A stretch of DNA of 30,684 nucleotides from Chromera velia. Taxonomy: Eukaryota > Sar > Chromeraceae. The translations under genes and the position numbers were made by a program. Location: the NCBI GenBank assembly GCA_018398765.1, contig JAHBMJ010001453.1:1-30684 (forward strand). The letters are read 5' to 3'. Positions 1,283 to 28,159 of this stretch are shown in pieces; the stretch's first letter is position 1, and each line of letters begins with the position of its first letter. The notes beneath the pieces are model-generated. The model saw nothing but the letters and a program-made list of their open reading frames with translations. It was not told the DNA's origin and made no database searches.

Positions 1283-2939
1283 CATATCGTGAATTTATAC
1301 AGTGACCAATATAGTTGAATATCTCGCTTATTAAATGTCGGATACCTGATAAATGTATATACTAGGCTCGGATTCAATGTATATTATATTTCAGACAAAA
1401 CGCTAATATAATATAATATAATATAAACTTAATGTAATATAGAAGATAAAGATTGGATTCAAGGTAATGAGTCAGAGAATGAAGATCCGGCTTGTAAAAT
1501 ATAATGATGATGCGTCTCTTTGCTTGATAAAACGTTTTTTAAAAAGGATTCAGAGGGAGGTTGCTCAGTCCAGATGATAAAGATGGTTGAATTAATAGAG
1601 AAAGAAAAACAAACACGGACAAATTTATATCCATGTTAATATTATGTTTTATATATATATATATATGATGAGGTGACTTAACCCGCCAGCCATCGTGTCC
1701 CAATGGCAAAGGGCAGTCTGTGAGTATTCATGTCATATTGCAAGCTAGGAGCGTGCTAGCGAATGCTCACCTAAAGCGGCCGCCGAACTTTAGGACTACT
1801 AGCTAGCAGAACACTGCTCCCCTAGATCGATCAGTCCGGTCCTAGGCATGCAACAATAAGGGCACTGGCCTTTTGGGCATCCTTTTGAAGAAGAAACGAG
1901 AAGTACCGCCTTACCAGGCCTACTCCTCAGCCTGCCCTACCCCCCTATCCCCTCGGGCTTCCTGTCTCTCTCCATGCTTATACACTTCTTCTATTGACAT
2001 ATGCTCCAGTCGCCTATACTAGAGATCACTCAGTCTCCCCCGCGGCCCCTCCGTTCGGACACAAGTTGTCAGACGGTGAATCGGATCGTCAATCAATTTC
2101 TCCTAACTTTTCTCTTCATAGGCTTTGCAAATTGATTCAACCCTCCCCCCATGGTTTCCCTCCCCTCCAACAATGGCGCACAGCAAAGGGCGGAAAACTG
2201 CCCCGGGGGAAGACAAAAACTGCTTAGGGAGAGGTTCTGCCAAGGCGCAGACCATGAGCCCCCCCTCCCCTCCACCAAGCTTCCGAGAACCAATTTTGCA
2301 AAGCGTTGGCTACTACTATTCTCCTTCTGATATTCGGTCACGCTCCCATGCATTCCTTGTCTCCTCTGCCTCCCCCCTCTCCTTTCTGTGATGGAGACCG
2401 GGTTTACCCAGTCCCCCATCCATTCGTTCACCTCTCTGTTTCTTGCTCCCCTTCTTAGCTTGCTATTTGATGTTCTGAAATCGATCTCATCTGGTTCACC
2501 TTCCAGGAGGGCAGGACTGACGGGTTGCACAAGCTTCTTTGCAGACCCCGACCACACCCTTAACTCCCCCCTCCTGTGGTATGCCCACAATGCTTGAGGC
2601 AAAGCCAATCGAGCAAGAGAGAGACTTCTCAAATACCCCCCCACTCTAACACTGAGAATCTCTCTCATGGGCTTCAGCCCAATGGCTGTAAAGGTGGGAA
2701 ACACAAAAAAATTCTAGGATAGACGGAGAGACCAACGTACAAAACGAAGCTGGAGGGAGTCTAAGCATCGGATGTCAGATTCTTAAATGGGGAGAGCTTC
2801 AAAGGAATAGGTGGCGGCGGGCTTTCACATCCCCTTAAAAAGGGACATACGACTGTGAGGGGAGAGCATACTTATTGATGCATACAGACCCATAGCCCCC
2901 GAAGCCTAGTGCATATATCTGATTCATAATCTTAAGTTC
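1283..2939. other. Intergenic sequence with microsatellites; no supported gene
   Basis: This stretch has an AT-rich left part with a TAATA-type array near 1404-1426 and a TA array near 1652-1667, then a GC-richer, C/T-rich part from about 1680. The minus strand of 2093-2704 is open for 203 codons. Its composition (Arg, Ser, Gly), lack of any recognised motif and lack of splice-site context do not support a gene, although a decayed one cannot be excluded. No RNA gene was recognised. Confidence 0.4.
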
Positions 2940-3230
2940 TACTTTGAGGGGTTGGCGCTGGTGAGTGCTTGCAGAGGTTCAAGGCTCCTCAGGGGTTGAT
3001 GGCACTGAGGTAGTTCAAGTCGATCCCCAGTGACAGACTCGATCCATGTCAGAAGCATGGAGATTTTTTGCGATTGGATGATCGTTTTGATTTCATTGTA
3101 GTCTTCTAGAAAGTCTTTCAGAAGTTTTTCATCTGATTTTGATCGAATTGCAAAAGGCCAACATCTGTATGATACGGGACGTTAGCATCGTACATCTTCT
3201 TTCTTTGATAATATTATTTAAAAGGGGGAT

Positions 3231-3301
3231 AGCGAGGATTGAACTCATGACCTTCTGCTTGTTAGTACTGACTGCGGCTGTATGATAACTACTAGGTCAT
3301 G
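3231..3301 (-). other. tRNA-like segment with A-box and B-box-like motifs inside the LTR
   Basis: On the minus strand GAGTTCAATCC (plus 3236-3246) closely fits the Pol III B box GGTTCRANYCC. TGACCTAGTAGTT (plus 3287-3299) resembles a tRNA A box of the CTAGTGGTT type. The two motifs are 40 bases apart, as in a tRNA. The acceptor and T stems do not pair well, so this is not a functional tRNA. It may be a fossil tRNA or tRNA-derived SINE head taken into the LTR, or an internal promoter. The same segment is in the other LTR at 12146-12216. Confidence 0.45.
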
Positions 3302-3410
3302 AAAGTAAACGACGCGCACAATCTTCTTTTGCTTAGTATTATTTTTGATTTAATTTTTGAACTAAAACTGATTCATTTAATTTCTATCGATCTTCTTTCT
3401 ACTTCTTTCT

Positions 3411-4315
3411 ATTGCGACCGCTACCGGCAATGACCCTTCACTGCCGGCAATTGCCGGTCTGCCGGCAATGGACATTTCTGACTTAATCACTCCAAAAAAA
3501 AATATAGTAAAAAAATGAGTCTCAAAACAAAAATTTTTTGCCTGCGGTGCAGTTGCTACAAAATGCTTTTAAACTCTTTTATAAGCGATCATAGCATTCT
3601 TACAGCCTCTTGATAATTAGTTTTTTAAAAAAATATATAAAATATAAAAAATATTGAAAAAAATATGAAAAAAATATATTTATTATTTATGTACTCAAAC
3701 GTGACAACGTGTTACGGTATCACTGTGTCAGTCTGTCACTTAGTACCTAAAAAAAGAACGAATATCTTATTTTTATGCTTCAATCTGTGCTTGCTAGTGC
3801 TCGCCCTGCAGAAGCTGCTTGGTTCACTCTAACTCTGAGTCTCTGAGAGAGTTCAAGCAGATTAAGGAGAGAACGGTCACTCACTCGTTTCCAGTCTGCC
3901 AACGACTCGCCACTGGGCCGACGGCACTCATCAATTTGACTTACAACATCTGTAAACATATCGCAAAGCACACTGGCCATAAAAGTATCCCTCTTAACGA
4001 CTCATTGAATCTTAGATATGGCCTTAAGCCTAGCCTTAAGCGGGTTATAGGAGGTATGAAGCACCTCCATGTGCACCTATAATCGGAGTGTGTAAAACCA
4101 TATACGGACTGTCACAGTGTTTAAACCTATAAACAGACTGTGTACAGTGTACATAGACCAACCCAGTAGATAATGACTTATAGATTTTATTATTGAACTC
4201 TAACTTTCTCTGCCATTGACTGCTAGTCACTTTGCCGGTGGCGACAAGCTCTGCCGGCAATTGCTGTCCTGCCGGCAATCGCTCTTCTCTGCCGCCGAAA
4301 AAAAAAGTAACCCTG
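3411..4315. mobile_element. 905-bp insertion of unknown class in the left LTR, TTTCT duplication
   Basis: Comparison with the right LTR, where the sequence runs uninterrupted as TTCTTTCTAGCTATG, shows that 3411-4315 is inserted. TTTCT is present on both sides (3406-3410 and 4316-4320), a 5-bp target duplication. Each end carries several copies of the palindrome TGCCGGCA or TTGCCGGCAA: left at about 3424-3476, right at about 4232-4280. The right end has a run of nine A residues shortly before the junction (near 4299-4307). Terminal inverted repeats are not clear and the ends are not TG-CA, so the class is unresolved. No credible protein is encoded. Confidence 0.7.
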
Positions 4316-4321
4316 TTTCTA

Positions 4322-4344
4322 GCTATACTTAAGCAGTGTATAGC
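4322..4344. other. Hairpin at the LTR terminus (left copy)
   Basis: GCTATAC (4322-4328) and GTATAGC (4338-4344) pair as a 7-bp stem around a 9-base loop. In the right LTR the stem is GCTATGC with GCATAGC (12327-12349). The A-T pair has become G-C by changes on both sides, so pairing is kept. Being the outermost bases of the LTR, this inverted repeat may also matter for end recognition. Confidence 0.5.
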
Positions 4345-4345
4345 A

Positions 4346-4358
4346 TTTACCCCTTTCT
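4346..4358 (-). other. Polypurine tract of the LTR element
   Basis: On the minus strand AGAAAGGGGTAAA lies directly before the first bases of the left LTR (TGCTATAC). Retroelements use such a tract to prime plus-strand DNA synthesis, and its position and strand match the minus-strand gag. One T interrupts the purines. Confidence 0.6.
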
Positions 4359-4478
4359 AAAATTGAGATTCCACACTCGATTTGTGCATGATCTTATCTC
4401 ATAGCATTCGCCCTTTTCTATGTCTTTTCGTGCTTTTCTGTGCCTTTATGGTTTTCTGATGTACCAACAGCCCCTCTC

Positions 4479-6066
4479 CTACGCGTGCGGCGGCGGTCTC
4501 AAAAAGGTACCGGCATGCCCATGAGCATCATTCAGCTCGCATGTATGGCTGAGGAAAGCGCCGGGGTCCTTCATGCAAATAGGCTTATATAGCTGCGACA
4601 TGTCATGCAATGCAACACGTGCAATGCAACATATATTTTTCGGCTGGGGCGTGTTTCTCATTTTCGATTGGAACATTTCGATAAAAAAATTTCTATGAAC
4701 TTTTACGAAGCAAATGGTATGATTGACCCCTCTTTCGATGCTCGGATTTAACTGCAACATGTTTGTTACTCTTGATGCATCCCTGACGACTCTCTCTTAG
4801 AGCATCAGTTTTCTCTTCTTCATGAGTCTCCCTCACTTCAAAGCGGTGTTGTTCTTCCGTCTCCTTTAACTTCGTTCCTATTCTGCAATCACTTCGTCTG
4901 GTCCCTGTTTGGAACCTCGACCTCGCTTTTGTAGCGACTCTCTGATTGGCCACTGTCTCTCGAGGCCCTCATCTTGAAGTTTCCGGTCAGGTTGAGCACT
5001 CTATAGACTTGATCGTTCCTCTTCTTGAAAAGCTTGGCGTCGATCTTGTACTTGGACTTGTTCAAGTTATCCTCAGTCTCCCTTGTCCTTATGCTTGCAG
5101 ATGCTCTCCATGTCCTTGTTCTTCAACTTTTTCTACATCGCCACATCCACCTCGCCTCCATCTTGTCCTTCTTCGTGTTTATGTTCTGACGCAAGGCGAT
5201 CCTCCTCCGTCTCCGACCTCTTCTATATCGCCACATCCTGGGCAAGGATCAGTATGCCTACATCTACGGCAAGGATCATTATACCTACATCTATGGCAAG
5301 GATCACGATGCCTACATCTATGGCAAGGATCATTATGCCTACATCCACAGCAAGGATCACGATGCCTACATCCACGTTGCCCCTGTTGTCGTTGTCCTTG
5401 CCCCTCTGGAACCCGATGTCTCTTTCCGTCTCCATGAGCCTCATCCGCTTCGACATCGGTTTTGTCCACTTCCTTGTTCTCCTCTTTAGAATCCTTCCAG
5501 CAACTTCTCATCACTGCTGCATGCTTCTATGTCATTGCTTTGATCTCCTGGGTGGTGTTCATGTCGTTCATCTCCATCTCCTCGGTCTTGGTCGTCTATT
5601 TACGCCCTTGCGCGCGGGGCGGTAGCGTTCTTCGTGCTCCTTTTTATCTCGATGTGGCCTCCCTGTGGCTCCCATCAACGACCTTCTTCTTTGTCTCGTC
5701 TTTCCTCCTGTAGGGGGATCTTTGGCATACGACAGAGAGTGGCTCGGGAAGAGGAGTCAGTCTATTCATGCAAGGTAGTGACTCAGTTGTTCGATGTTAA
5801 GTTTGCTGCGAGGTCGCGTTTTGCACTTCTCTCTCTCTATTTTGTTTGAAAGAGCTTGTCGGCTTTATACTTTCTTGACAGACTGTCTTCCCGTGTTTTT
5901 GCTGTCTGGCTTTGATTGGCTTGTCTCTGCACCATTCACCATTTCGTTCAATTTCGCCTAAAATTTCGCTGAATTGATTTTTTTTCTTCTGTGATTTCAT
6001 TTGCCTGCTGGTCGTCTTGTTCTGTTTGTTTGGCTCCCCCGCCATCCCATCTACTCTGAAAAACAT
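4479..6066 (-). pseudogene. Decayed Lys/Glu-rich frames in the 3' half of the LTR element
   Basis: The minus strand holds several short open frames in different registers: 5797-6066, 5179-5514, 4693-4953 and 4479-4760. Their products are hydrophilic and rich in Lys, Glu, Arg and Gln. The plus strand here is strongly pyrimidine-rich, as in the gag region, so the coding-like strand is minus throughout. This could be the remains of a second structural protein or a duplicated gag-type segment. None of the frames contains a recognisable protease, reverse transcriptase, RNase H or integrase motif. I cannot name a family. Confidence 0.25.
5237..5378. repeat. 27-bp minisatellite, about five copies
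   Basis: The unit GGCAAGGATCA followed by YTATGCCTACATCTAT repeats with a 27-base period. Because 27 is a multiple of three, every frame that is open reads as a 9-residue repeat. On the minus strand one frame gives VDVGIVILA-type units and another gives CRHRDPCHR-type units; the plus strand gives ARITMPTSM-type units. The minus frames lie in the decayed part of the LTR element, and which, if any, was ever translated is unknown. Confidence 0.7.
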
Positions 6067-6243
6067 TCATTCAAGTGTGCATATGCGAGCGGACGATTTA
6101 TATGCGAGTTTTTTATATAAAGCGAAGTAACTGTTTGGTATAGCGTCTGGCTTCCTCTTGTTCTTCTTCCTCGATCTCTAACTTTTAGTTGAAAGTGAGT
6201 GTGTTCACAACTTCTCATCGAGCTTATTTTAAGATTTCTATTG

Positions 6244-6455
6244 GGGTCGGAGGCCCAGCACTGGTGCTATTGCTGCCGTTATATATGATGGGGACAGAGG
6301 CCTAACACCGGGGTTTTGCTGTTTGAGCAGCTTTTATTTGTGTGTGAATGAATGTGTATTTGTATTTATGTGAAGGATGAGTACTGATGACAGAGGCTCA
6401 GCACAGGTAACAGGGCCTATTACTGGGGACAGGGGCCCAGCACAGGCACAAAGCC
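6244..6455. repeat. Four dispersed imperfect copies of an AGGCCCAGCACAGG motif
   Basis: Related 16-base blocks occur near 6249, 6296, 6392 and 6432 (forms GGCCCAGCACTGG, GGCCTAACACCGG, GGCTCAGCACAGG and GGCCCAGCACAGG), each preceded by GTCGG, GACAGA or GACAGG. Spacing is irregular (36-96 bases). They lie inside the LTR element and have no assigned function. Confidence 0.35.
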
Positions 6456-7163
6456 AATCTACCTCTTCCCTGGGAGGTCCTGGTGGTATGAGTGGCCAAC
6501 TCATCCACTGGAGGACCTTTACTGCGCATACGTATACGACTTGGCTTGCAAAGAGCTCGTGGGGTCGGAGGCCCGTTGAATTTGTGTGCCCGGCAGGTCA
6601 GTGTTATCTGCTTTTGTTCATTCATGCAGTCACCGAGTCAGTGTGGTGCTGCCCCAGGGAGGGTATGTGTATGTAGGTGCGGGTGAGTGGATGAATGAGT
6701 ATGAGGATGTGTGAGTGTATGGATGTTTTGTTTTCATTCATTCTTTTTAAGTATTTAGGGGATCATACACTTGGTCTTATTGTCGATGTATTTGTCTTGC
6801 TTTGCATTTTTTGTGCCCTTTATTTTATTTAATTGGTCATGTTCAATCAATCAGGTATTTATCCATTCATCCCTTGTAACAGTTCATTTGACCATTTGTT
6901 TGTAAGTGTTCATCTTGTCTGTCTTTTCTCTCTGTTTCTGTGGTTTCGTTTTTTTTTTTTTTGACTTACGCACGACTTTTGTACTCCTTTAGTGCCCGCA
7001 CCTTTCGTGGCTTTTTCCAGTTCTGGTTATTTCTGGTTGTTGACGGTGCTTGCTCTGACTCTTGATCTCCCATTGTCGATATCCTTATTAAGAACGTAGT
7101 CGATGATGATTTCATTTTTCCATGTCTGCAGGTCTTCAGTTCTAGGCTCTTCGATCCCTGATT

Positions 7164-7278
7164 ATGTCTGCCTTCCCCACAGCAACTCCAGAAGTGAGAG
7201 TACCGGGAGCCATCCGCCGTTTCACGATGGTCAACGTGAACTGTCCTCCTGTGATTGGGGGTGCCAGCTCCTTCGGAG
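7164..7278 (+). other. Exon-like open segment antisense to the LTR element
   Basis: A plus-strand ATG at 7164 opens a coding-looking stretch (MSAFPTATPEVRVPG and onward) that ends at a strong donor, GGAG|GTGAGT, at 7278/7279. A possible acceptor, ATGCAG, lies near 7523, and joining them in phase gives a short tail with a stop at about 7580. The total would be under 60 residues with no recognised domain. It could be a fragment of a host gene captured by the element, or chance. The rest of 6066-8230 shows no gene. Confidence 0.2.
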
Positions 7279-8229
7279 GTGAGTGTTCCCCATTCTGTTC
7301 CATATATTCTTTTGGATGTAGTGCCAGCGTCTCACTCGGCCTTTTTAGTCTCTCTTCTGTGTCACAGTGTGTTGCTTTTGTTTCATCTTCCCCCTCCTAC
7401 GCTATGATATTCTCTTTTTGATCTGTCTTCTTTCTTTAACTACTGAGTTTCCCTTCTTGCTCTCTAAGAATAGCGGCTCCCTTTCTTACAATTTGCTCTG
7501 CCTCAAATTACTGAATGAATGCAGGGCAGTCGCAGTCTTCAACTTTGATCCACCATAATTCGTTTGGGCATCCTTCATAGGTGAGGAAGTATTGCACCTT
7601 CTGTCTTTCTCTCTCTTTTTTTTTTTCGACCACTTCTCTCACTTTGTGAACGGATTCTTTTTCTTATCACGAGTCTGTCTGGCCTTGAAGAACGCGTACA
7701 TTTCAAGCGCATGCAAGTCAAACAAAATGTTGTCATCAAAGAAGAGATGTAAAACTTGATTTTCCTGATTCTCTGTAATTTTAAAATCGAACAAAAAAAA
7801 GAGACGAGTCTTTCGTTCTCTAGTTTGTTTTCTCCCTTGCTTTCGATTAAGAGAGGTGAAAAAATGACCCTAAAGGACGGGTTAGCTATCGTTAGCTGCT
7901 GGCGGACATGATCATGTACTATGATGCATGATTCACCACACGTCTGCTGTCCATCACTGCAGGTACGATCATGCTGCGATCAAAGAAACGGAGAGCTCTA
8001 CCCTTTGTGAGTTCAGATAGATACGTATGACTGCTTCCATTTAGTGCTTCTTGTTGTCGTTTTTCTATCTTTTCTTTCCCCTTTCTCCCCTCCCCCGTTT
8101 CTTTTTCTCTCCGTCTTCTTGAGTGTTCCTTGCTCTTTCCAGTCTTTCTTCTCTACTTCTTTCTCTCATGTTAGGGTCTGTTTTTTCTGAGACTGGAAGA
8201 CGTGACTCAATTTTGTTTCAAGTCCCTTT

Positions 8230-9685
8230 TTAGTCTTCTATATGCTGGTCTAGCATGTCCTTTGTTTCCACAGTATGCGCTTCGCAGTCTGGTGGCAGAG
8301 TGCACCTGTCACCTTCGTCAGGGGCCGAACCTCCGTATCTTATGCAAGTGGCGAAGCCTTGTGTGGACACTGCTGCAGATGCTTGCTGAAGGACCGTGTT
8401 GATTAACGAGGAGATGTGTTGTCCTGTGAAGGGTAAGGGCTCTTCCTGTTGGCTCTCGGTGAGTCTGTCCCCTTTTATCATTTCAACTTTTGTTTTTTCG
8501 ACTGCCATAACCTTTTTGGGTCTCTCAGTTCTCCTATTGTTGTGTGAAATCAGTTCTGCTAGCCCAACTAATTTGTCGAATGAGTTGTATTGCTTTTGTC
8601 TGAGAATAGACTTTGCGATTTTGTCGAACAGTCCTCTCCAGAATTTTTTTATCAATCTTTCATCCTCAGTCGACGAATTTGCCTGTTGACAAAGGGAAGC
8701 GTACCTGTCTGCGTACTCCTGAATTGTCTCTCCTTCTCTTTGCTGCAGGTTGTCTAAGCTGTCTTCTGCCTTCTCTACATGTGGTACCTTGAGTCCGAAC
8801 TTCGAGAAGAAGGCGTCTTTCAGGTCTGACTCAGTGATGGTCTGCATTTTGTTCATTAAATTTTTCTTATCAGATATGTCTGTAAACCAGTCGAGTGCAT
8901 TTCTTTTCAATAATTTTTGGATATAGAATAGAGTTTGGGTGATGTTCCATTGGAAAGCAGCGGCATTCATCTCGAAAGCTCTCTAGAAGTTCCGTACGTC
9001 TTTTCTTTCTCCTGAATATGCATTGATGTCTGCTTTGATTAGGGGGTTGTAGAAGTGGTTTGGGGTTAGTAGCAGTGGAGGAGTCGGTAGTAAGGGAGGC
9101 AGAGCAGCTTTTTATGTGAAAGAGGGAAAGGGTATCACCATACTGAGCTATCTGCTGTTGTTTCCTTTACAAGTACTTTGTCCATGTTAAGCACCAATTC
9201 AAATTCTCCTTCTTTTGTTGGTTTGAATGTGACTCCTTCTTTTGCTAATTCCTTTAAGATAGATGAATTCTATTTCTGTACTTGCATGGAACCGGCTGAC
9301 AACTTTTTCTGCGCTTTATCGGTCTGTTGATCTATCATTTCTTCATCTGATTCTCCTTCACTCTCTTTTCCATTTCTTTTCTTTTTATTACTTTCCCTCC
9401 CTTTTTCATTCTCTTGTGTTTCGTTTTCTTCCATTTTTTCGTCTTGGCTCTCCACTTCCTTTTCTAGCTGTTTCGATCCTTTTTCTTATTGTTTCAATTC
9501 TTGTTATTCGAAGATTTCCCCTTTTCCTTCTTTTTTAGTGGCTCCTTAATTACTTTTTTGGGTTTTTCAGCAAGCTGAAGAGACGCGTCCATTTCGTAGA
9601 ATTCGTCAGGGTTGCTTTTCTTGTTTTTTTCTAGTACTTTTTGTCGCTCCGTCAGTTTTTTCTTGGGCTGAGGCTTTGGAGCCAT
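8230..9685 (-). pseudogene. Retrotransposon Gag, disrupted
   Basis: This is the structural protein of the LTR element, which would form the particle that packages its RNA. The 246-codon frame at 8230-8970 has the retrotransposon Gag (Retrotrans_gag type) pattern: ALDWF near its residues 26-30, a KFG segment about 35 residues later, then E-x-I-QEYADRYASLC, FWRGL, and a tail of basic and polar residues. The same frame continues upstream with GERKDVRNF before a TAG at about 8982-8984, where Leu would be expected. Further upstream, Lys/Glu-rich N-terminal pieces lie at 9270-9455 and 9494-9685 (start MAPKPQPKKK), in registers that need frameshifts to join. No CCHC zinc knuckle is seen at the C-terminus. 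At least one stop and one frameshift make it non-functional as it stands. Confidence 0.7.
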
Positions 9686-9744
9686 ATTTGGTTCTCCCCT
9701 TTTAATGCTATGCCTTACGCAGAAAGATGAGTGTAGTTTACTAT

Positions 9745-10105
9745 CAGATAGAACGTGTGAAATTCATAGAAAGGGCAGGGCTTCGCCGCTCGCAGAAGAA
9801 TAGACAAAAGTCAAATTCACTCTGAGACTCAGGTAGAATGCGTAGAATTCACAGAAAGGGCAGGGCTTTGCCGTTCTCACAAGAATGAAGAAAAGTCAAA
9901 TTCACTCTCAGGTAGAATATGTAAAATTCACAGAAAGGGCAGGGCTTTGCCGTTTGCAGAAGAATGGAGAGAGGTCAAATTCACTCTCAGGTAGAATGCG
10001 TAAAATTCACAAAAAGGGCAGGGCTTCGCCCTTCTCATAAGAATGAAAGAAAGTCAAATTCACCCTAGAATGTGTGAAATTCACGAAAAGGGCAGGAATG
10101 GGGAT
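9745..10105. repeat. Tandem repeat of 74-85 bp, about 4.5 copies, in the LTR-element leader
   Basis: Copies share GTAGAATGYGTRAAATTCAC, then AGAAAGGGCAGGGCTTYGCC, then AGAATGRA and GTCAAATTCACTCTCA. The GGGCAGGG block recurs at about 9774, 9859, 9937, 10016 and 10090. Each unit contains the palindrome GTGAATTTCAC or a close variant. They lie just upstream of the Gag start in the minus orientation, in the untranslated leader. Confidence 0.8.
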
Positions 10106-10124
10106 CCGGTTCTGTTTGATTTCG

Positions 10125-10335
10125 GCAGTGCTTCGCGGTGTGGTTCTGTTCGGTGCAGAATTTTGGCAGGGGACAAGAAATCGGGCTCCTTCAGAAATCT
10201 TGGTAGCGCTTCACGGTGTGGTCCTGCTCGAGTCGGCTACGGAATTTTGGCGGAGGATGAGAAGTGGGGTTCCGTCAGAAATTTTAGTAGCGCTTTGCGA
10301 TGTGGTCCTGCTTCTTCTCCTTGCAGGTACAGGAC
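10125..10335. repeat. Second tandem repeat, about 80 bp, 2.5 copies
   Basis: The block AGYGCTTCRCGGTGTGGTYCTG recurs near 10128, 10204 and 10289, and each of the first two is followed by GAATTTTGGC and then TCAGAAATTTT. It directly adjoins the previous array but has a different unit. It also belongs to the leader of the LTR element. Confidence 0.7.
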
Positions 10336-10562
10336 ACCAAAAGGTAAGTTGCTAGGTAAGTTGAGGTTTGAGTTAATGGCTCGCAGGTGTGGGCTCCTGT
10401 AGTAAGGGTGTAGGTGATCACAGCGTTTTAGTTTCCTCTGGGTGAACCTTCTCTGGACAAAGAAGGTAGTCTGCATTGCTTGCAGAATGGTAGTTGTTCA
10501 GCAGAAAAATCAAAGGTTGGTCTCTGTTCGCTCAGCTCCTTGATCTTGTTGATCTCAAGCTA

Positions 10563-10572
10563 GGCGTCACCA
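10563..10572 (-). other. Candidate primer binding site
   Basis: Fifteen bases inside the end of the right (5') LTR the minus strand reads TGGTGACGCC. A tRNA primer site must start TGG, the complement of the CCA end, so a tRNA ending GGCGTCACCA would fit. The distance from the LTR is larger than the usual 0-10 bases, and I have no tRNA set to test against. Confidence 0.3.
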
Positions 10573-10612
10573 CGTGTTAAGGTCTATATACTTTGAGGGG
10601 TTGGCGCTCTTA

Positions 10613-11848
10613 CCCTACCATCTAGCAACGCTTAACAACGAGGTGAATCGCCTCTACATGTTGAGGTTCAGTACTTCATCTAAAGAGGTCTTGCAAAAAT
10701 GAATAGCATTACTATGTCTAGGTTACTAACTTCGTCCAAGACCGCCGCGCATCAGGTTATCAACCTAGACTAGGTTTGTCATGCATCTAATGAATGACAG
10801 TCTAATATTGATGGTAAGCAGTCTTATATCTAGTATCATCTAGTCTAGCATTCATGAAAGGATGCCTAGCATTTTTAAATTCAGTCATACATTATGTTTA
10901 TAGCATTTATGAATGTTGTTGAATGTTTTATAGATATTATATGGTATTATGATAGCCTAATTTATTTGCAATTTATTCTTCGATACACTTGTAGCATCAA
11001 GTTCACTCTTAGGTTCATTCTGCCTAATCACTTGAGTCTTCGTCGCTAGAAGCCCCCCCTTCTTCGTCAAAGTGATCAGATAATTAAATAAACTTCTAAT
11101 TTACCAAATTCATGCCAATGACAGAACTCATGGGTAAGAAAGCGAAATACGGCAAGAGATACCTTCCACGCCTTTATTAAACGCACATTGCATGCAAGCA
11201 GCTCATAACTTTCTTCGCCTCTGTATGAAATATATTTAATCTAGTTGGCGCATCGCTTTCTTTCTTTTGGAAGACGTTTCATCTTTTTTATATCCTCTCC
11301 ACAAAGGACGGTAGCTGCATCATCTTCATGGAGTTGGAGGGGATTGAGAAGACTTTTGTGGGCTTCTTCTATCTTTCACCGATTAAGAGACCACTAATGC
11401 ATTTTCAGATCCCAAGAAGAAGAAAAAGAAGAAAAAGAAGAAGAAGAAGAAGAAGAAGAAGAAAAAGAAGAAGAAGAAGAAGAAGAAGAAGAAGAGGAGG
11501 AGGAGGAGGAAGAGGAAGAGGAAGAGCAAGATGAAGGAGAAGACTGCTGGTCAGAAACAAACAAAACCTTTGCAAAAAAACACCAGCGGTATGTTTTGAC
11601 ACCTTTTTTTTTGTTAAACATTTTTACTAGGATGCTGGGCATTATTGTTTGGTTGCCTAGCATTTAATTTAATGCTTAGTGGTCTAGCATTTTTGATTCG
11701 CCTCCCCATATGCAAGGTCCACGCATGATGCAAGACAGTTGCTGACAATGTTATCAACTATGACATGTAGAGGCTAATTATTCATGTATGACCTGATATA
11801 TAGAGGCGATTCACCTCATTGTCAAGCGTTGCTAGACGGTAGGGTGAG
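10613..11848. mobile_element. TIR element nested in the right LTR, about 1.24 kb
   Basis: The ends are 47-base inverted repeats with four mismatches: CCCTACCATCTAGCAACG (from 10613) against the reverse complement of 11802-11848 (CCCTACCGTCTAGCAACG). Each contains the near-palindrome GAGGTGAATCGCCTC. CTTA borders both ends (10609-10612 and 11849-11852). It could be a 4-base (or TTA 3-base) target duplication, or on the left the first bases of the repeat, since the right repeat also reads CTCA there. The left LTR at 2954-2970 is the empty site. There is no transposase frame; the interior is AT-rich and holds a GAA array. A PIF/Harbinger origin (TTA target) is possible but unproven. Confidence 0.7.
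11409..11535. repeat. GAA/GGA trinucleotide array
   Basis: About 125 bases consist of GAA with occasional AAA, changing to GGA and GGAAGA near the right end. It lies inside the nested TIR element. The poly-Ser, poly-Leu and Arg/Lys frames it creates on both strands are artefacts of the repeat. Confidence 0.9.
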
Positions 11849-12145
11849 CTTATGAGTGCTTGCAGGGGTTGAAGGCTCCTCAGGGGTTGATGGCTCCTCA
11901 GGGGTTGATGGCGCTGAGGTAGTTCAAGTCGATCCCCAGTGACAGAATCTGACTCGATCCATGTCAGAAGCATGGAGATTTCTTACGATTGGACGATCGT
12001 TCTGATTTTATTATAGTCTTTCAGAAAGTCTTTCGGAAGTCTTTCATCTGATTTGGATCGAATTGCAAAAGGCTAACATCTGTATGATACGGGACGTTAG
12101 CATCGTACATCTTCTTTCTTTGATAATATTATTTAAAAGGGGGAT

Positions 12146-12216
12146 AGCGAGGATTGAACTCATGACCTTCTGCTTGTTAGTACTGACTGCGGCTGTATGA
12201 TAACTACTAGGTCATG
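12146..12216 (-). other. tRNA-like segment in the right LTR
   Basis: This is the second copy of the segment at 3231-3301 and is identical to it over the core. The B-box-like motif is at 12151-12161 and the A-box-like motif at 12202-12214. Strong conservation compared with the rest of the LTR suggests either chance or retained function. Confidence 0.45.
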
Positions 12217-12326
12217 AAAGCAAGCGACGCGCACGATCTTCTTTTGCTTAGTATTATTTTTGATTCAATTTTTGAACTAAAACTGATTCATTTAATTTCT
12301 ATCAATCTTCTTTCTACTTCTTTCTA

Positions 12327-12349
12327 GCTATGCTTAAGTAGCGCATAGC
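12327..12349. other. Hairpin at the LTR terminus (right copy)
   Basis: GCTATGC (12327-12333) pairs with GCATAGC (12343-12349) around a 9-base loop. It corresponds to 4322-4344 with a compensated A-T to G-C pair. Confidence 0.5.
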
Positions 12350-12350
12350 A

Positions 12351-12637
12351 ATAATTTAAAACATCGCTTCAATGTATGCACTTAAACACTGTGAAAGTGT
12401 GTCAACTGTGCTTGCCATTGCATGAACGGTGATCAATTGTGTTGTCAGACTAAGTAGCAACAACTGCTTATTCATAGGCATAAACGGAAAATGATCCGAG
12501 TCGGCCGCTGTTATGGGTCGACTCCCTTCGATCGAAACTGCTGTGCTCGTCACGTTGCGGTGACATGTACATACAGCCTTTGCAAACTTATTTGCGCTGA
12601 GTGCATAATTAAGTTGAAGTACCACCGATGCAGATCA
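12351..12637. other. Gap between the LTR element and the secreted-protein gene
   Basis: The first part is AT-rich and the rest mixed. It should contain the 3' untranslated region of the minus gene that ends at 12638. No other feature was recognised. Confidence 0.4.
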
Positions 12638-25738: not shown

Positions 25739-25746
25739 CCCGTGGT

Positions 25747-26872
25747 TAGTGACCATGTTTGATTTGATTATATTTGATTTGATTTAATTTGTTTTGATTT
25801 GAGCTTCAACCTCAAATATTTGATATTTGAGGTAAGATTTGAGGTTAACCTCTTAAGGTTCCTCACTGAGTCACTGACTTACTGTCACTCTGATCATTTT
25901 TCTCATGACAATAGTTATCAGAACATTTCTGATATATGTTTCAAAAATTTAAAAAAATATATATAAAATTATAACTTATCAGTTCCATAAAAAAAATATG
26001 CCTATGTGGCAGTGTATATACACTAGTCACTGAGACTCACTCTAGTACCAATAGAGATTAAGAACGTAAAATTGATAGATTTGAAATTGTATATGACTTT
26101 TTGTTGATACGATAAAGTTAGAGCACGTACCAAAATTGAGGTGACAATCACTCAGCTTTATAGCACTTCCTTTTCCTCTTCTTCATGATCACTTTCTTCC
26201 AGGAGTGGGTGCTCCTGGGCTTCTATTCGGTTGCGGAGAGATGACAACGGGGTGAGACGGAGAACCGCGCACACCTTTGCTATTGCTGTTGGTGTTGGAA
26301 CCATCCTGTTTCTGGGCAGCTAAGTATCCAGAGTTGGTAAGTTCAGCTACCCTCTGTGCCGCGCCAGGGCCGACAACAAGCTCTTTATGTTAGAGGTGAA
26401 TATAGAGAGGTCGGTAGCCTTCCTCACCCGGAGTGATGACTTTCTCAGGAGGGGGAAGTTTCCCCCAAGCCTTCTCAGCATTTGCGTCTGCGGCCGCCTC
26501 CTTTAGTTTCAAATTGGTCCTCACCAGAAAAGTCAACACAGCTGTTCGGGAAAATGTTCAGCTGATCGGTTTACCTCTGCATGAAGTAAAAAGGGGTGAA
26601 ACGTCAATTTCAGTGCAGCTCAAAACGTTTTTTTTTTGAGAGCAAACCATCAAGATTTAGGTTTTTTCATTTAAATCAGCATGCATGACGGATCGGTACT
26701 TGCAAAGTTTTTTCGGGATCTTCATATTTGAGGTTGAAAGTCATATTGATCAAATATTTGATCGTATTTGATAGGTCTTTAAACACTAGGTCCTCCCTGA
26801 CTGGATATTTCATTTAAGCTCAAGCCCTACCTCAAATCAAATCAAATCAAATCAAATCAAACATGGTCACTA
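25747..26872. mobile_element. hAT-like TIR element, 1126 bp
   Basis: The ends are perfect 23-base inverted repeats starting TAGTGACCATGTTTGATTTG, at 25747-25769 and 26850-26872. They are flanked by imperfect 8-base direct repeats: CCCGTGGT at 25739-25746 and CTCATGGT at 26873-26880, which differ by two transitions. An 8-base duplication and ends of the form TAGNG are hAT features. TTTGA/TTGAT repeats extend inward from both ends, and the block TTCAACCTCAAATAT recurs in inverted orientation further in. No intact transposase is present. Confidence 0.75.
26189..26557 (-). pseudogene. Decayed open frame inside the hAT-like element
   Basis: The minus strand keeps one frame for about 120 codons with a single internal TAA, then ends at TGA (26189-26191). 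The readable parts include LKLKEAAADANAEKAWGKL, PPPEKVITPGEEGYRPLYI, then after the stop VVGPGAAQRVAELTNSGY and a Ser/Asn/Pro-rich tail. This stretch is GC-richer than the rest of the element. It might be a transposase remnant or captured host sequence; no family was recognised. Confidence 0.35.
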
Positions 26873-28159
26873 CTCATGGTTGGCCAGAGCCTAAGTAGTG
26901 GCTCACCGGCTTTAACCGCCTCAATTCATTGACAGACAATGCTGCTAAATCTGTTTAAAAGTAATGCAAACTAACTCGAGTCGAATGTCTAGGCTTGAAT
27001 GTGCATCAAGAATTTACTAACCGGCCGTGGGCAGTGAATTGCGGGGAAAGTTCCCCGGGAAACTTACAATGTATCAATTATTATCAATATTAATTATTAA
27101 AATGATAAATCCGTATCCTTCAGCTTAATTATCCTAATACCAATCAAGTCTAATCAAACCTCCTAATTAATGATCTCAATTAATTAAGATTCGATTAAAA
27201 GTTGGAATGCATCTAGAAATGGATTGAATATAAATCAGAAACATGCAAACTAAACAACAAGAAAGTTAATCATAATTTACATTAAAGATTAATGAAGAAC
27301 TTGAATTGAGGTTTTTAGTAAAGGGCTTTCAGCACGTTATTTAAATTGCTTGATTTAATATTTCAATCTTACCATCGAATTGCTAGTCAAATTATTATAA
27401 AATGACGAGCATGCATTCACTACTAGGATAACTACTTTACTTCATATACTGCGCTGGGCAGCAGCTACGTAGGAATGATATGTACACTCTTCATTTATCC
27501 TAGCGTTTATCACACAGTGCGTCACATATTCATAAATGCATGCTTTCTAATGCTTTGATGTATTTTGACATTGAACCTAGCATTGAACAGCCCGGAACCC
27601 GCCGGACTGACAGCATATGAGATCTCATACCTATCAATCATTCACAACAAAATGCACAAAAATGCCCCAGTGCCTCTGAGTTTTTCTCTGCTTCTTTTTC
27701 ACAAATCCGTGCGTCTGCGAATTTTCTTTTGTCTGTTTCTATGAATGAGAAAGAGTCTGAATGACGATGCAGTGGGCTGTACAGTATCTGCCAGCCTACC
27801 GATCGATGTATCTACTTTCCAAGCTGCAATGTCTGTCTCTCCTGTCTCTGTACACACGAATCCTTGAATTGATCGCGCATCCACAGTTTTCATACAGCTG
27901 TACAGAATAAAGGAAAGAATGAGACACCCTACTCATGAAGTGCTCTCTCTCCCTTCAGATGCAAAGGTGAAGTATGCACGCATGGCACTAACTCGCGCCC
28001 ACAGGCAGCAAAGGACCGAGCTCCCGAGTGCACCAAAAGGCGCATCAAGAAAAAGAAAAAAGATAAGAGAAGGACCCAACGCTCCCCTGATTTACTCCCT
28101 CGTTCCCCTCCCTCCCTTTCTGCCCCCACCCCCCTTCCCCTCTCTCTCTCTGTGCGTCT

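Follow-up and report, generated by a model that had tools for sequence, protein, structure and literature searches.

A pol-less Ty3/gypsy-type retrotransposon of Chromera velia with later insertions in both long terminal repeats and a tRNA-like segment inside them

The window analyzed here, a stretch of 30,684 nucleotides from Chromera velia (assembly GCA_018398765.1, contig JAHBMJ010001453.1, positions 1 to 30,684), very probably harbors a dead, non-autonomous Ty3/gypsy-type long terminal repeat (LTR) retrotransposon of a pol-less form, both LTRs of which were later hit by other elements and carry a tRNA-derived segment. The element integrated once, on the minus strand, duplicating the target ATAA. 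Afterwards, one LTR received a hAT-type DNA transposon and the other LTR an inverted-repeat element. It belongs to a form that shares one ~4-kb deletion in pol and has kept gag. The first-pass annotation had already proposed a single LTR element hidden by two different later insertions, which the window and its relatives elsewhere in the genome bear out. The ATAA duplication, the missing pol and the tRNA-like LTR had gone unnoticed.

The LTR pair and its insertions

The window contains a ~500-bp repeat in two direct copies that are ~8.9 kb apart. Of the 446 positions aligned between them, 419 were identical (94%), with a single 6-base gap, and the short outer pieces of both repeats, aligned separately, matched as well. 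In this alignment the place of each insertion is uninterrupted in the opposite repeat, so that each LTR is indeed the empty site of the other's insertion, as had been claimed. The two repeats are the LTRs of one minus-strand element, each later split by a different DNA transposon. The genome searched for relatives comprised 177.8 Mb in 4,040 contigs, the window being contig C1451. In relatives with clean ends, the LTR sense strand reads TGCTAT...TTAACA and the homology reaches window position 2932; on these grounds we set the LTR limits given in Table 1. The pair as first annotated stands, with its real ends ~10 bp further out. The predicted TG/CA termini are present in general, the left outer end being mutated to TC.

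Four-base target duplications of other sequence surround the relatives in C164 (ACGG), C3769 (ACAC) and C4015 (GATG), so that four of the five LTR pairs examined, the window counted, have one. The length was constant at 4 bp in these four elements and in seven solo LTRs. The fifth pair, C3462, had no flanking duplication. This speaks against the reading, and we attribute it to the left LTR of C3462 adjoining a second interior. The divergence between paired LTRs (Kimura two-parameter distance) was 0.050 for the LTR body in the window, 0.052 in C164, 0.047 in C4015, 0.026 in C3462 and 0.016 in C3769.

A primer binding site and a polypurine tract lie exactly at the repeat borders, both in the window and in its relatives. 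The primer binding site can pair over 10 nt with the 3' end, plus CCA, of the genome's own tRNA-Trp(CCA). The runner-up among 46 tRNAs, taken from 40 fetched stretches out of 52 listed tRNA matches, reached 7 nt. The polypurine tract beside the left LTR had been recognized before. The second, upstream tract is also present 61 nt away at the loci of six relatives, two of which (L020 and L038) may be duplicates; in the window the twin tracts were noted at 4406-4419. A solo LTR in L010 (2002-2516) starts at the junction of the upstream tract, with ACGC at both flanks. This suggests that either tract can set the LTR end, and that LTR length may depend on the tract used.

The insertion in the left LTR had been described as 905 bp long and bounded by TTTCT. 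The insertion is real, with a length of 904 bp, and TTTCT is part of the 8-bp duplication TTTCTAGC, because the family of this insertion makes 8-bp duplications. The left copy of TTTCTAGC has lost GC, together with the terminal CAGGG of the transposon. The family has ends like CAGGGTTGC and GTAACCCTG. A matched 3' end was present at four of nine further loci that were examined. Each of these four was flanked by an 8-bp duplication, perfect in three cases and with one mismatch in the fourth. Such duplications and CAGGG-type inverted ends are the signature of hAT elements, by which the assignment was made. The insertion in the right LTR agrees with the 1.24-kb element with terminal inverted repeats annotated earlier. 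Its family is small (four other contigs with both ends), and no clear target duplication was seen in the copies examined.

It had also been expected that a tool would probably miss the element. This was not supported, as a plain repeat finder detects the pair. Moreover, on either side of the uninterrupted 446-bp match the target duplications are reached within 60 bp, the distance that structure-based LTR finders tolerate according to the accessible part of PMC4501334.

The interior and the pol-less form

The minus-strand gag was confirmed in the place predicted for it. An additional gag piece upstream is in a different frame from the main 250-aa piece, and gag is therefore broken. The protease remnant was judged by eye at the protein level against C3462, to which a DNA match was also found. 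Between the window LTRs, we found no frame for a reverse transcriptase, RNase H or integrase. In C3462 these three occupy ~4.1 kb between the equivalents of window positions 7793 and 7647. The gene order in C3462 (gag, protease, reverse transcriptase, RNase H, integrase; the protease by eye) is that of Ty3/gypsy elements, and the top PDB match of its RNase H piece was Ty3 (E 7.5e-10).

The 3' region showed no coding signal in the tested part (4946-5640), where no antisense frame stands out either. Tandem repeats of 27 bp at 5226-5387 leave several frames open on both strands, without a coding signal in any of them. In the leader, the ~79-bp repeats vary in number among elements (9724-10069 in the window, 3933-5044 in L013).

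Searching the genome with the left repeat gave 42 rows (40 of 168 candidates were scored), of which 39 were in other contigs and corresponded to 38 places, one being in two pieces. LTR pairs enclosed gag-bearing interiors in C164, C3769, C3462 and C4015. The fetched loci contained 38 LTR copies, 11 of which lacked a recognized interior on either side. Seven of these were solo LTRs with perfect 4-bp duplications, of the kind that the first-pass annotation had proposed to look for. The other four comprised one without a clear 5' end, one followed by primer-site-like sequence and two with unequal flanks.

These copies bear on whether the ~500-bp repeat could be an independent, tRNA-headed short interspersed element (SINE) or miniature inverted-repeat transposable element (MITE), inserted twice by chance around a gag remnant. 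The repeat is partly tRNA-like and the 11 copies without interior would fit such an origin, which we nevertheless regard as extremely improbable. The repeat brackets homologous gag interiors in four other contigs. A repeat always alone and never around gag would, by the first-pass annotation, have refuted the LTR element, and the outcome thus favors it. The primer binding site and polypurine tract adjoin it precisely, and 4-bp duplications surround either pairs or solo LTRs. In C164, as in C3769, two copies of the repeat enclose a single interior, and one duplication lies beyond them.

The junction of the pol deletion was spanned in a single match at at least 28 places (28 of 43 rows, window included; 40 of 54 candidates scored), the 27 others having 78-87% identity. 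The remaining 15 rows were partial, and several of them were pol-bearing elements that matched in two separate pieces. A related reverse transcriptase (>=82% identity) was present at at least 16 loci, two of them partial. Hence, the deleted form looks more numerous than its likely helper (at least 28 versus at least 16). L020 and L038 have the same outer flank and their contigs may be duplicates or alleles, so the copy counts are possibly inflated as well as being lower bounds. Elements of the family with gag measured 7.4-13.2 kb. The pol-bearing relatives in the same genome measured 12.8-13.2 kb; homology to them extends over the LTRs, the leader, gag and the 3' region.

C164 and C3769, both of them pol-less, are flanked by target duplications of their own, from which it follows that the deleted form moved as such. 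Since the LTRs and the flanking interior have homologs in pol-bearing relatives, the window element might instead have integrated as a full copy and lost pol afterwards. We consider this very improbable: the same junction recurs at the 27 other places, C164 and C3769 carry their own duplications, and among the copies compared no pol-bearing gag was closer to the window than that of C164. The TR-GAG-type features of gag kept, pol absent and movement in that state are thus all present. For the pol-less form of the window, we propose that its RNA would have been packaged, reverse transcribed from tRNA-Trp and integrated, all by the enzymes of pol-bearing relatives.

In a gag tree of six rows, the four pol-less rows fell on one side, with support 100/100. 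Two results weigh on the other side. The gag piece of the pol-less L016, too short for the tree, was closer to pol-bearing (0.88-0.89) than to pol-less copies (0.85-0.88), and pol-less copies did not form one group in LTR trees of 39 and 18 rows. The larger tree used 39 of 40 rows (L045 omitted), from which the 18-row set was drawn; the labels of L014 and L019 are uncertain. On the 18-row set, a single pol-less clade was not rejected (approximately unbiased test, p 0.106). The leader of the pol-less L024 was 94% identical to the pol-bearing L030 and 85% to the pol-less L023, versus 86% and 92%, respectively, for its gag. This hints at exchange between the two forms but is suggestive only, because the tree splits are compatible. 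At L012 (2046-2101) and L016 we observed LTRs with an interior on both sides, that is, tandem LTR-interior-LTR-interior arrangements.

The ratio of nonsynonymous to synonymous substitution rates (dN/dS) of gag was 0.53 for the window versus C164 (bootstrap 0.31-0.93), 0.77 for the window versus C3769 (0.42-1.47) and 0.59 for C164 versus C3769 (0.28-1.57). The selection on gag within the pol-less form that these values suggested did not withstand the wrong-frame control: for the window and C164, three of the five wrong frames gave 0.43-0.62, and the other two 1.03 and 1.33. Between the window and the pol-bearing C3462 the true frame was the lowest of six (0.35 versus 0.52-0.91), a difference that need not concern the pol-less branch.

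The tRNA-like segment of the LTR

The sense strand of the LTR resembles a tRNA gene from the A box through the B box, followed by a T-run. These boxes are also present in C3462 and C4015, in the LTRs on either side of pol. An A box with at most one mismatch plus a perfect B box was found in 29 of 40 LTR copies, in none of the 40 reverse strands and in 3 of 1000 shuffles. TTTT followed 10-12 nt past the B box in all 35 copies scored, versus 8% of control positions (the remaining 5 copies did not fit the B-box pattern and were unscored). These counts reflect one retained capture rather than many events, because the copies descend from one ancestor.

The best local score against the 46 own tRNAs, among the 40 LTR copies, was 43 (L017). 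In a shuffle control of seven LTR copies with 200 shuffles each, four stood out from the shuffle maximum (L009, 38 versus 30; L012, 41 versus 31; L021, 39 versus 31; L016, 34 versus 29). Other stretches of C164 and the window, on either strand, scored 17-30.

Several results count against the tRNA resemblance or against a function of the segment. Both window LTRs scored 32, with shuffle maxima of 30 and 31, a weak signal. L031, with 23 versus 31, did not stand out, and the C164 LTRs scored 29, below the best antisense stretch of that element (30). With one B-box mismatch allowed, the boxes were found in 39 of 40 copies, yet also in 35 of 40 reverse strands and 84 of 1000 shuffles. Rfam called no tRNA on the left LTR or on the segment of one relative, nor did ARAGORN at default settings on the window or the 40 LTR copies. 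Relaxed ARAGORN gave scattered weak calls on both strands, which were not used. Conservation of the tRNA-like stretch did not exceed that of the remaining LTR, its level being matched by 192 of 392 windows.

We propose that the LTRs of both forms descend from one LTR that had acquired the tRNA-derived segment with its A box, B box and T-run. The full transcript would most likely start from an RNA polymerase II (Pol II) promoter, and the segment may be a relic or a side promoter for a short RNA. A working RNA polymerase III (Pol III) unit, producing a short RNA from each LTR, is conceivable but rather unlikely judging from the sequence. The boxes in tRNA order and the regular spacing of the T-run would suit such a unit. 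On the other side, the copies are homologous and represent few events, extra conservation was lacking and several copies had a weak tRNA score.

Table 1 Features of the retrotransposon and its insertions in the window.
Feature	Position	Strand	Remarks
Whole element, Ty3/gypsy-type	2930-12350	minus	LTR to LTR
Left LTR (3' LTR)	2930-4345	minus	split by insertion; outer end TC where relatives read TG
Right LTR (5' LTR)	10575-12350	minus	split by insertion
Target-site duplication ATAA, left copy	2926-2929	.	relatives have different 4-bp duplications
Target-site duplication ATAA, right copy	12351-12354	.	identical four bases as left flank
tRNA-like segment, left LTR	3220-3299	minus	A box 3289-3299, B box 3236-3245, T-run 3220-3223
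tRNA-like segment, right LTR	12135-12214	minus	A box 12204-12214, B box 12151-12160, T-run 12135-12138
Primer binding site TGGTGACGCC	10563-10572	minus	2 nt from right LTR
Polypurine tract AGAAAGGGG	4350-4358	minus	adjoins left LTR
Second polypurine tract, upstream	4411-4419	minus	~61 nt away; decayed in the window
Leader tandem repeats, ~79-85 bp unit	9724-10069	minus	between primer binding site and gag
gag piece, 250 aa stop to stop	8230-8982	minus	Pfam Retrotrans_gag, E 7.1e-9
Open frame with protease remnant	7575-7979	minus	resembles part of the C3462 protease frame
Site of lost ~4 kb (reverse transcriptase, RNase H, integrase)	7648-7793	minus	common to the pol-less form
3' region, pol site to 3' LTR	4346-7647	minus	common to pol-bearing relatives
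hAT-type non-autonomous DNA transposon, 904 bp	3412-4315	.	inside left LTR
Inverted-repeat DNA element, 1,240 bp	10609-11848	.	inside right LTR; 51-bp inverted repeats, 90% complementary

Comparison with known elements

Taken alone, the window element is an unremarkable dead, non-autonomous retrotransposon; what merits attention is the tRNA-derived LTR in a family with gag and pol. In the gene order of its pol-bearing relatives (C3462), with reverse transcriptase and RNase H ahead of integrase, the family resembles Ty3/gypsy, from which the window copy differs by having none of these three. It shares LTRs, primer binding site, polypurine tract and gag without pol with the TR-GAG elements of plants, as described in the accessible part of PMC10552921. 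Compared with that description, the window family keeps a protease remnant and has likely pol-bearing partners in the same genome as well as a tRNA-derived LTR segment.

Among terminal-repeat retrotransposons in miniature (TRIMs), a close likeness is with Helenus, which according to the accessible text of Kojima 2024 (PMC10886601) has tRNA-like LTRs, a length of 311-1263 bp and no mobilization protein. A and B boxes in the LTR, a primer binding site, a polypurine tract and solo LTRs are shared with Helenus, and 4-bp duplications and Gypsy-type partners with its animal members as presented there. The family found here differs from that account in its 7.4-13.2 kb with gag, and in some copies pol, which places it outside the size range and the non-coding character of Helenus. 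Also, its tRNA-like LTR is common to pol-bearing relatives. Cassandra, a TRIM treated in the same text, likewise has a piece of a Pol III gene within its LTR. There, however, the piece is 5S rRNA sequence and not tRNA, and the element is short and without a coding interior. In a Culex gypsy element (PMC3286476, accessible part), tandem tRNA copies are found at the primer binding site, which is a different arrangement.

Kojima 2024, in the same accessible text, puts forward SINE insertion into the LTR of a mini-element as the origin of mini-elements whose LTRs derive from tRNA or 5S sequence, and reports no known partner of Cassandra. That such LTRs would have a long stretch in common with those of an autonomous partner is regarded there as unlikely, owing to the weak processivity of Pol III. 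The family described here indicates that tRNA-like LTRs can ride on long elements (12.8-13.2 kb), an observation that does not refute the argument, as far as it is accessible, if the segment is a relic. It opens an alternative route to tRNA-derived LTRs to study within one genome. We tentatively suggest, as an unlikely but specific scenario, that an autonomous Ty3/gypsy element took a tRNA gene into its LTR and that this gene persisted when the pol-bearing and pol-less forms parted. One LTR would in that case hold a Pol II promoter for the genome-length RNA together with a Pol III unit for a separate short RNA, and Helenus-like mini-elements could arise by loss of the interior.

As far as the open-licence literature shows, no family with gag and pol has been described that carries a tRNA-derived LTR. 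Long undescribed examples may exist, because not a few LTRs in Repbase resemble part of a tRNA, as stated in the accessible part of PMC10886601.

Outside the retrotransposon, at 25740-26879, the window contains another inverted-repeat element, with 46-bp ends that are 89% complementary. Its family is large and young: 40 of 740 candidates were scored, and many of the matches had 96-98% identity.

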